DNA of 64,000 nt, taken from Prochlorococcus sp. AG-409-N21 (GTDB lineage Bacteria; Cyanobacteriota; Cyanobacteriia; PCC-6307; Cyanobiaceae). The stretch covers positions 1 through 64,000 of the forward strand of contig QCKK01000007.1 in the NCBI GenBank assembly GCA_003215415.1, given 5' to 3'. Below, in pieces: positions 7,779 through 29,337 of the stretch. The position numbers and the translations under genes were made by a program. Every line of letters starts with the position of its first letter. Position 1 is the stretch's first letter. The notes below the pieces were generated by a model. The model was not told the origin of the DNA and ran no database searches. It saw only the letters and a list, made by a program, of their open reading frames with translations.

Positions 7779-8702
7779 ATGACTAATGTTTCTGCCCAGG
7801 CTAGTCACGGTAATGGTCGTAACTGTGTAATTACCAGACGTGCCTGTTTTAGTGCAAGTCATCGCTATTGGCTCCCCGAGCAATCAAAAGAAGAAAACGA
7901 GGCTGCCTTTGGTCTTTGTGCTTTAGCACCTGGCCATGGACATAATTACGAATTAATTGTTTCCATGGCAGGGGAGCTAGATAAAAATGGGATGGTTCTA
8001 AACCTTTCTGCCGTAAAGACAGCAATCAAAAATGAGATCACTAGTCAACTCGACTTTCACTTTCTCAATGAAACATGGCCAGAATTTGACTTATCTACAC
8101 CCAAAGGTTGCTTGCCGACCACAGAAGCACTTATTAAGAGCATATGGAATAGGTTAAAAAACCATTTGCCTCTAACGTCACTTCGCCTCTATGAACACAC
8201 AAACCTTTGGGCCGATTATCTGGGCAATCCAATGAATTCTTACCTAACAATTCGTACACATTTTGCTGCTGCACATCGATTAGCCAGAGCTGAGCTAAAC
8301 CAAGAGCAAAATGAAGCAATTTACGGGAAATGTGCGCGACCAAATGGTCACGGTCATAATTACTTTGTTGAAATTACAGTTAAAGGAGAAATAGATCCAA
8401 GGACAGGAATGATATGTGATCTTAGTGCTTTACAAGGCTTGATTGATGAGCTTATTGTCGAGCAATTTGATCATACTTTTCTCAATAAAGATATACCTCA
8501 CTTTCAAACATGTGTTCCTACTGCTGAAAATATTGCTCTATATATTTCTGACTCTCTAATAAAACCGATTAAAATTATTGGAGCAGAGTTGCATAAAGTC
8601 AAATTACAAGAAAGTCCAAATAATGCAGCGGAAGTATTCGCAGATCAATCAATGATGAATATTCCATCTAAAGTGCTAGAAGAAAGCATGTTCTCTCATT
8701 AA
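7779..8702 (+). CDS. Tandem 6-pyruvoyl-tetrahydropterin synthase/QueD-like protein
   Basis: The 307-residue protein holds two T-fold PTPS domains. Domain 1 (about 18-150) has zinc ligands H28 (FSASHR), H53 and H55 (GHGHNY) and C47. Domain 2 (about 155-295) has H166, H191, H193 and C185 (GKCARPNGHGHNY). The catalytic Asp-His pair is intact in domain 2 (D231-H232, FDHTFLN) but domain 1 reads LDFHFLN, with Phe93 where His is usual. Glu139 and Glu278 fit the substrate-pterin glutamate. Family members make tetrahydropterins or the queuosine precursor CPH4. The next gene is a RibD-C-type reductase, also of the pterin/flavin world. Confidence 0.85.
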   Translation: MTNVSAQASHGNGRNCVITRRACFSASHRYWLPEQSKEENEAAFGLCALAPGHGHNYELIVSMAGELDKNGMVLNLSAVKTAIKNEITSQLDFHFLNETWPEFDLSTPKGCLPTTEALIKSIWNRLKNHLPLTSLRLYEHTNLWADYLGNPMNSYLTIRTHFAAAHRLARAELNQEQNEAIYGKCARPNGHGHNYFVEITVKGEIDPRTGMICDLSALQGLIDELIVEQFDHTFLNKDIPHFQTCVPTAENIALYISDSLIKPIKIIGAELHKVKLQESPNNAAEVFADQSMMNIPSKVLEESMFSH

Positions 8703-17756: not shown

Positions 17757-19146
17757 GTGTGGAATGAACCCTCATCAGGCATTGCGGTTTCTATAAAAGA
17801 TGCGCAAGCTTCCAATCAGAAACCAGTCCCTGCAGTTGTCGCTTCTGTAGAACCGTTTTCTATCGGGGAGGATCTAGGGTTTGAGCCTGGAGATCAACTA
17901 CTTAGCATTAATGGGGTTCGTCCCCGTGACTTGATCGATTATCAATATCTAATTGTTGAAGAAGAACTGCATTTAGAAGTATTGGACTCCAACGGAGAGC
18001 TTCATGTCATTGATTGTGAAAAAGACTTGGATGTTGGACTTGGCCTGAGTTTTACAGAAGCTCTTTTCGATGGCCTCCGTCAATGTAATAACAATTGTCC
18101 TTTTTGCTTTATAGATCAACAACCTGAGGGAAAAAGGAAAAGCCTTTACTTAAAAGACGATGACTATAGATTAAGTTTTCTTTATGGCTCATACCTAACG
18201 CTCACTAACCTCAAAAATAGTGACTGGGAGCGCATAGAGAAACAAAGGTTATCGCCATTATTTGTATCAGTTCATGCAACTGATCCCACTCTCCGGTCTC
18301 ATTTGCTAAGGAATAAGCTTGCTAGCAATTTATTAGAGCAATTAAGATGGTTTCAAAAAAGAGAATTACAAATTCATGCTCAAGTTGTTGTATGCCCTGG
18401 CATTAATGATGGGAAAGCTTTAGCAAAAACTCTGCGTGATCTTGCAAAATTCAAAACAGATCGTTTCCCTACTGTTATTTCAACTGCTGTAGTACCAGTA
18501 GGGCTTACACGTTTTAGACCAATTGATGATGGATTAAAACCTGTTAGTTCTGTTTGCGCTAAAAAAATAATCAAACAGGTCGAATCCCTACAAAAGGAAT
18601 TTCTAGAAAATGTAGGTAGCCGCTTTGCTTGGTTAGCAGATGAATGGTATCTACTGGCAGGCAAACAATTGCCCGAAAGATTTGCCTATGAAGACATGCC
18701 ACAACAAGAAAATGGTGTTGGCAGCATTAGGAGTTTTCTAGAAGCAATGGATGAAGAAACTAAAAAAACTACCCTTAAAATTAGAAAGACCTCGAAGCTG
18801 TAGTTGGGTAGTTGGCAGTCTCGTAAAAAGATCACTGCAAGAATGTTGTAAAAGATTAAATGCTATTGATGGATTAAGTCTTAAATTATATGGATTGCCA
18901 AGTCCTTATTGGGGCCAAGAGCAAGTTGTGACTGGTCTTCTCACAGGAAACGATCTCTTGAAAGGCTTGCGGGGCAATGATCTAGGAGAAGAATTACTAT
19001 TGCCATACGTAATGCTTAAGCAGGGTGAAACTGTTTTCTTAGACGACATGTCTACAGAAGAACTTTCCGAATTACTGGATATATCAATAAGAGTTGTACG
19101 AGGAGCGGAAGAAATCGTGGCCGCAGCACTGGGCGATCACCAATAA
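17757..19146 (+). pseudogene. PDZ/radical-SAM DUF512 protein (TIGR03279-like), split by a frameshift
   Basis: Two consecutive frames together make one protein. The first (17757-18803, GTG start) has a PDZ-like segment (ASVEPFSIGEDLGFEPGDQLLSINGV), then CNNNCPFCFIDQQPEGKRKS with a CxxxCxxC cluster motif, and the DUF512 body. It ends abruptly in a non-conserved tail. The second frame resumes the conserved C-terminus (LYGLPSPYWGQEQVVTGLLTG, FLDDMSTEEL) to 19146. The break maps to an A7 run at 18762-18768; deleting one A restores a single frame of about 460 codons. It may be a real mutation, a sequencing error, or slippage-rescued. Members of this family are cyanobacterial oxidoreductase-like proteins of unknown reaction. 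Confidence 0.8.
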
Positions 19147-27344: not shown

Positions 27345-29066
27345 TCAACTTGTCCTCTTCTTACTCTTGCGATGTCTTGCTTTTGATCTCTTCTCTAAAC
27401 GTTTAGCTTCCTTTTTTGCTAAGGCAATAGCTAACGCCTCTTTCTTACTTTCTTCTGATTTCTTCTCAAGAAAATATGAATAATCACCTTTATAAAGTAT
27501 TAAATCACCATCTCGAATTTCCACTATTCGATTTGCAACACGAGAGATAAAATACCGATCATGCGAAACAATCAATGCTGCGCCTTGATACTCTCTTAAT
27601 GCATCCTCAAGCATCTGCTTCGAAGAAATGTCAAGATGATTTGTTGGCTCATCAAGAACAAGTAAATTTGATGGTTTTACCAACATTAGTGCCAAAGCAA
27701 GCCTTGCCTTCTCTCCACCACTCAAGGAAGAAACTTCTTTAAAAACAGCATCATTGCTTAAGCAAAAACTCCCTAACAAAGAACGAACCTGAGTTTGAGT
27801 CCATCTAGGAACACGCTCAAACATGGTATCAATTACGGTTTTTTCAAGGTCTAATGCTTCTGCTTGGTTTTGCTCAAAATAGCCAGCTATAACATTATGT
27901 GATCCAAGACAAGCCCTGCCATCCTGAGGCTCTTCCATGCCCATAATTAAACGTAAAAGGGTGGATTTACCTGACCCATTTGGACCTATGAATGCAATAC
28001 GATCTCCAGCCTCAATATCTAAGTTAGCCCCGAGAAAAAGAATATTCTCTCCATACATATGAGTTAGATCGTCAATAATTGCAACCTGCCTTCCCGACCT
28101 AGGTGCAGGGGGAAATTCAAAATTTGGGCCAGTCAAATCTTGAATAGGTGCATCAATTTTCTCAATTTTGTCAAGCATTTTCTCTCTACTTTTAGCTTGC
28201 GTACTTCGTGTAGCACTTGCCCTAAAGCGATCAACATATGCTTGCTGAGAAAGCATATCCTTTTGTTGCCTTTCATAAGCAGACTTTGTGGCCTCTTTTT
28301 CAATTCTTCTCTGCTCTAAGTAATTGGTATAATTGCCAACATAAGACCTGGAAATTCCTCTTTCAATACTAACTATTTGAGTACATACCTTATCCATAAA
28401 TGTTCTATCATGACTAATTAAAACTATTGCAGAAGTTTGCTTAGTTAGATATTCCTCGAACCATTGAATTGTTTCTATGTCAAGATGATTTGTAGGCTCA
28501 TCAAGTAAAAGAATATCTGGATCTTGCAGAAGTATTTTTCCCAAGGCAATTCTCATTTGCCAGCCTCCTGAATATTCACGAACAAGCTTATCTGCAGAAG
28601 CAGTTGTAAATCCTATTGTAGGCAATAACTTCTCAATCTGTGCCTCTAATTGGTAACCATTTAATGATTCAAAATCACTCTGAAAATTACTAAGTTTCTT
28701 GATCAACTGGTTTAAGTATTCATTATCCTGCATTGCACGAAGAGATTCCATTTCTTGTTCAATTTCTCGTTGTTTAGCAAGCACTTTTGCAGCCTTAGAG
28801 AAAGCTTGAAAAAGCTCTTCTCTAACAGTGCGTGATAAATCAACATCAAATTCCTGCTTTAAATATGCAATCCTTGGTTCACCTTGTCTGACAATTTGAC
28901 CACTACTTACTTCTTCCAATCCAGCTATCAAACGTAACTGGGTGGATTTACCCGCTCCATTAACGCCAACAAGTCCAATGCGATCTCCTCGCCTAACCTC
29001 CCAAGTGATATCCCTAAGGACCTCACAATTGGGATAGATTTTGCTTACATGCTCAAGTCGTAGCAC
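27345..29066 (-). CDS. ABC-F family ATPase (translation factor type)
   Basis: The 573-residue protein has two ABC domains with no membrane part. Walker A motifs are GVNGAGKST (about 35-43) and GPNGSGKST (about 360-368); signatures are REYSGGWQMRI and SSLSGGEKARLAL; both domains have DEPTNHLD. A charged linker (about 240-310) and a Lys/Arg-rich C-terminal tail fit the ABC-F class, which act on the ribosome in translation or antibiotic resistance. It is an Uup/YheS-like member; the exact subfamily is unclear. Confidence 0.92.
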   Translation of the reverse strand: MLRLEHVSKIYPNCEVLRDITWEVRRGDRIGLVGVNGAGKSTQLRLIAGLEEVSSGQIVRQGEPRIAYLKQEFDVDLSRTVREELFQAFSKAAKVLAKQREIEQEMESLRAMQDNEYLNQLIKKLSNFQSDFESLNGYQLEAQIEKLLPTIGFTTASADKLVREYSGGWQMRIALGKILLQDPDILLLDEPTNHLDIETIQWFEEYLTKQTSAIVLISHDRTFMDKVCTQIVSIERGISRSYVGNYTNYLEQRRIEKEATKSAYERQQKDMLSQQAYVDRFRASATRSTQAKSREKMLDKIEKIDAPIQDLTGPNFEFPPAPRSGRQVAIIDDLTHMYGENILFLGANLDIEAGDRIAFIGPNGSGKSTLLRLIMGMEEPQDGRACLGSHNVIAGYFEQNQAEALDLEKTVIDTMFERVPRWTQTQVRSLLGSFCLSNDAVFKEVSSLSGGEKARLALALMLVKPSNLLVLDEPTNHLDISSKQMLEDALREYQGAALIVSHDRYFISRVANRIVEIRDGDLILYKGDYSYFLEKKSEESKKEALAIALAKKEAKRLEKRSKARHRKSKKRTS

Positions 29067-29142
29067 TATTGAAAAGCGCTTGTAATAAGAACATCATCCA
29101 GCTTGAAATAACGGCAGACTGGAAATCATCCATTCCTGGTCG

Positions 29143-29337
29143 ATGGCGATGGTGAGACTAGAACAAATTGCTGCCATATTTCTAGCCGCAGGACTAGCTA
29201 TACCTAGCTACTGGTTCTTCTGGAGCCTGGCAGGAGGCGGAGGCTATGACCGAAGAGGAATTGAAAAGCCAGTAATCAAGCAAACCAATACTTCTGAAAA
29301 AACAAGATTTTCTCTTAAAGCCCCCCCCGAGCTTTAA
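29143..29337 (+). CDS. Small membrane protein (64 residues)
   Basis: Residues about 6-28 (QIAAIFLAAGLAIPSYWFFW) form one hydrophobic helix, followed by a Gly-rich turn and a basic polar tail. No family is recognised. The frame is complete, but the 3' end overlaps the convergent gene at 29315 by 23 bp, so one of the two could be over-predicted. Confidence 0.5.
   Translation: MAMVRLEQIAAIFLAAGLAIPSYWFFWSLAGGGGYDRRGIEKPVIKQTNTSEKTRFSLKAPPEL

Follow-up and report, generated by a model that had tools for sequence, protein, structure and literature searches.

An apparent frameshift at an A7 run in a TIGR03279 radical SAM gene of Prochlorococcus sp. AG-409-N21 is probably an artefact

DUF512 is described as a domain that binds cobalamin in radical SAM methylases, and four DUF512 proteins bound cobalamin and made methylcobalamin, according to the portions of PMC11659888 used here. 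In csDUF512 of Clostridium sporogenes (PDB 9cg1) the middle Asp of a DDD motif ligates the iron-sulphur cluster, and Thr323 and Leu366 are contacts to the cobalamin (same portions of PMC11659888). The family model TIGR03279 (cyano_FeS_chp, NCBIfam) stands for a radical SAM protein on which our literature search found nothing under that name. A further system of comparison are genes with transcriptional slippage such as dnaX, in which, as stated in part of PMC5009743, the slippage occurs on runs of nine A or T.

The window analysed here, a stretch of 64,000 nucleotides from Prochlorococcus sp. AG-409-N21, contains two overlapping ORFs in different frames, encoding 348 amino acids (17757-18803) and 131 amino acids (18751-19146). 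An earlier sequence-only reading had taken them for one PDZ/radical SAM gene, and this is borne out by the profile search, in which they matched consecutive stretches of the 433 positions of TIGR03279, the upstream ORF positions 2-320 and the downstream ORF positions 309-432. The locus differs from the family in that the frame is broken at an A7 run and neither ORF by itself reaches the curated cut-off of 574.7 bits. In Pfam the gene is composed of PDZ, Radical_SAM_2 and DUF512, of which DUF512 is split between the two ORFs (1-96 and 89-201). The features of the gene are:

17757 to 18803, plus strand: upstream part with the PDZ domain, the radical SAM domain and the first part of DUF512 (ORF, TIGR03279 and Pfam matches, alignment to 9cg1)
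18084 to 18107, plus strand: codons of the iron-sulphur cluster motif CNNNCPFC (sequence position, alignment to 9cg1)
18156 to 18164, plus strand: codons of the DDD motif (sequence, alignment to 9cg1, homologue alignment; PMC11659888)
18561 to 18567, plus strand: another A7 run of this gene, across which the frame is intact (run count, TIGR03279 match)
18742 to 18803, plus strand: interval holding the indel (stop codons alone)
18751 to 19146, plus strand: downstream part with the rest of DUF512, the cobalamin-binding domain (ORF, TIGR03279, Pfam, alignments)
18762 to 18768, plus strand: A7 run at the frame junction (sequence)
18811 to 18813, plus strand: Val codon aligned to Thr323 of csDUF512 (alignments; PMC11659888)
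18937 to 18939, plus strand: Leu codon aligned to Leu366 of csDUF512, below the cobalt (alignments; PMC11659888)

The stop codons by themselves place the indel within 62 bases, which include the A7 run, bordered by T on its 5' side and C on its 3' side. The coincidence is mildly non-random, because a homopolymer of this class occurs in only 3.5% of the 62-base stretches of the window. That the run carries one A too many had also been claimed, and rightly so: with six A the two parts are joined in a frame of 462 amino acids which has the length and motifs of the TIGR03279 family and aligns with 77 distinct homologues without any gap at the junction, one homologue showing a one-residue insertion further on. 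Nine A would yield 463 amino acids. Five, seven or eight A lead to an early end; after five or eight A a stop codon follows within a few codons, and with the seven A of the assembly the upstream ORF continues for about a dozen out-of-frame codons past the run.

The order of PDZ, radical SAM domain and DUF512 is the same as in csDUF512, and the cluster cysteines, the DDD motif and the Leu below the cobalt are conserved. The cysteines of the cluster motif are likewise found in 76 of the 77 homologues, the remaining one having a gap there. The product is a putative binder of cobalamin and an iron-sulphur cluster, both of which are bound by four other DUF512 proteins (PMC11659888). Since the alignment to 9cg1 places the cluster motif in the upstream part and the positions of Thr323 and Leu366 in the downstream part, we infer that the enzyme would require both parts. 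A difference concerns Thr323, which in csDUF512 binds the lower base of cobalamin, its dimethylbenzimidazole tail, and which is replaced by Val here and in all 77 cyanobacterial homologues. Cyanobacteria make pseudocobalamin, which has adenine as the lower base, and the Val may therefore be an adaptation of the site to this cofactor. The assembly also contains intact copies of the cobalamin genes metH, cobN and cobQ, and a loss of cobalamin use is thus unsupported. Besides the full cobN gene (on contig C12), a second, partial CobN-like match covering model positions 555-1225 was observed in a 714-amino-acid open frame (G000:C21:16002-18116); it scores below the cut-off and may be a magnesium chelatase subunit H.

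Outside this genome both parts lie in one open frame across the site in all 82 homologous loci (77 distinct), 63 of which derive from named contigs and 19 from other genomes; two of these loci (L052 and L053) start at a contig end. Homologues that stop at the position corresponding to 18803 and encode the second part as a separate gene were looked for and are ruled out among these 82 loci. A survey of 400 genomes of the family gave a TIGR03279 match in 354, of which 346 were above the cut-off. The matches of seven of the eight remaining genomes (G011, G095, G200, G234, G350, G381 and G460) end a few bases from a contig end and were rejected as further broken copies, so that an internal break is found only in the genome studied here; as the survey is based on the best match rows, it would overlook a frameshift close to a gene's end if the score of that gene remained above the cut-off. 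Among near-complete genomes of the family, 243 of 251 carry the gene. At the junction the longest A run in relatives comprises five A, in one of the 77 homologues, and no comparable run was found among them. The search for relatives in 197 genomes, including this one, revealed no closer strain, the best DNA match being 69% and the genus consisting of this one genome. A second copy of the gene was not found in the assembly, which is 65.34% complete.

All 40 near-invariant residues are retained in the downstream part and 137 of 138 in the upstream part. When the identity of the downstream part is divided by that of the upstream part, the gene takes place 47 of 78, with the most diverged ranked first. 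By these comparisons the downstream part has diverged no further than the upstream part and shows no decay, so that the break is either very recent or absent from the cell. Selection on the downstream frame accordingly lasted until very recently, or continues.

From its completeness and its nearest named relatives this genome is probably a single-cell assembly; the AG-numbered Prochlorococcus records among these relatives are, we assume, single-cell assemblies as well. Within 344 kb of the genome (the window and 14 further stretches), 185 kb were covered by homology to proteins of relatives, and in these only one clear frameshift was detected, namely the one described here. The control stretches of three relatives, two of them single-cell-like and one a complete genome, contained no clear frameshift in the 224 kb covered of 276 kb. 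Three weak candidates in the controls (102-108 bits summed) were judged from their scores only to be shadow frames. In the window, antisense candidates near 7800, 17000 and 18800 were set aside collectively as shadow frames, and candidates near 29126 and 60828 were rejected, since each depends on a single short reference frame that crosses a gene with a better match, encoded in a different frame or on the opposite strand. At 29131-29307 the plus strand carries a short conserved frame, with 62% identity over 60 amino acids to one relative; it apparently encodes a small protein and runs divergently from the gene of an ABC ATPase at 27345-29066. The window holds 43 runs of at least seven A/T or six G/C, including 32 A/T runs of at least seven inside long ORFs. 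Because only one clear frameshift was found despite these 43 runs, runs of this class are tolerated in the genome.

Four explanations of the seventh A were weighed, and the probabilities worded in the following are our judgement and were not computed. We consider it probable that the seventh A is an artefact of amplification, sequencing or assembly and that the gene is intact with six A in the cell. There it would encode an ordinary TIGR03279 protein of 462 amino acids with PDZ, radical SAM and the cobalamin-binding DUF512 domain, and the additional base, not present in the cell, would stem from the whole-genome amplification, the sequencing or the assembly by which this partial and probably single-cell genome was obtained. 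An artefact is favoured because all 82 loci have one frame and the break is the only internal one among the 354 genomes, because the downstream part is conserved and the reading with six A needs no gap at the junction when aligned, and because one frameshift in 185 kb is within the indel rate of single-cell assemblies, given in part of PMC6122165 as 3.0 indels per 100 kbp on average for benchmark cultures in a picocyanobacterial single-cell workflow. Against it stand the control stretches, in which no clear frameshift appeared, and, in the portion of PMC5519541 drawn upon, a tendency of P. marinus single-cell assemblies to the fewest indels among the benchmarks; moreover, an equally recent real mutation would look alike. 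Such a mutation, in which replication slippage would have added one base to the A run in this cell or its close relatives, would truncate the protein inside the cobalamin-binding domain and represent a very recent loss of function. We regard it as possible but rather unlikely. It is supported by the fact that such indels usually arise in homopolymers (PMC3812077, in the part used), by the scarcity of such runs in comparable stretches of the window and by the solitary position of the frameshift in the covered sequence: a generally error-rich assembly is unsupported. It is opposed by the near-universal occurrence of the gene in the family, by the absence of any decay downstream and by the intact cobalamin genes.

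That the seven A are real and the RNA polymerase, or the ribosome, slips often enough for a useful amount of full-length protein is very unlikely. The conserved downstream frame speaks for it, as do frameshifts in short runs that were bypassed in laboratory drift (PMC3812077, as far as its consulted text goes), and because of the latter traces of the full-length protein may be made. Homopolymers are found at the frame junction in dnaX-type genes and here alike, but here there are seven A instead of nine, and the run is not conserved in relatives. E. coli RNA polymerase shows no detectable slippage below eight A (PMC6260861, in part), although the cyanobacterial limit may differ, a repair of the frame requires a one-base deletion, the rarer direction, or an insertion of two bases, and transcript deletions seldom occur in homopolymers according to the portion of PMC5574713 used. 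Furthermore, the second A7 run of the gene shows no shift, and the RNA fold downstream of the site is not unusual (z = -1.03), so that a stimulating fold is unsupported. We also counted in favour of slippage that cyanobacteria are not known to have Gre factors, a lack that could raise its frequency. This gene was not found treated in those parts of the literature on Prochlorococcus and transcriptional slippage that were available. Slightly less likely still is the more specific idea that the seven A are fixed in the lineage and slipped on to supply the cobalamin-dependent radical SAM enzyme, the run acting as a leaky, quickly reversible switch. The least credible explanation is a truly split gene, in which translation of the second part would start at a separate ATG, at 18751, and the two proteins would act together. 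This in-frame ATG is preceded six bases upstream by a weak AGAAG, and both parts are conserved; however, the break falls inside one domain, DUF512, and other split arrangements were found neither in the 82 loci nor, contig ends aside, in the 354 matching genomes.

The observation itself is thus correct, confirmed by this analysis, and the finding is an ordinary one. Among the explanations offered by the sequence-only reading, an error, the likelier one, and a strain-specific loss stand, and slippage is disfavoured because of the length of the run, the direction of the repair and the lack of a run at the site in relatives. Were the seventh A real and bypassed, it would show that slippage can be productive on fewer A than the limit for E. 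coli. For the artefact that we prefer, the case calls for caution, as a conserved enzyme seems split or lost through a single-base indel in a partial genome.
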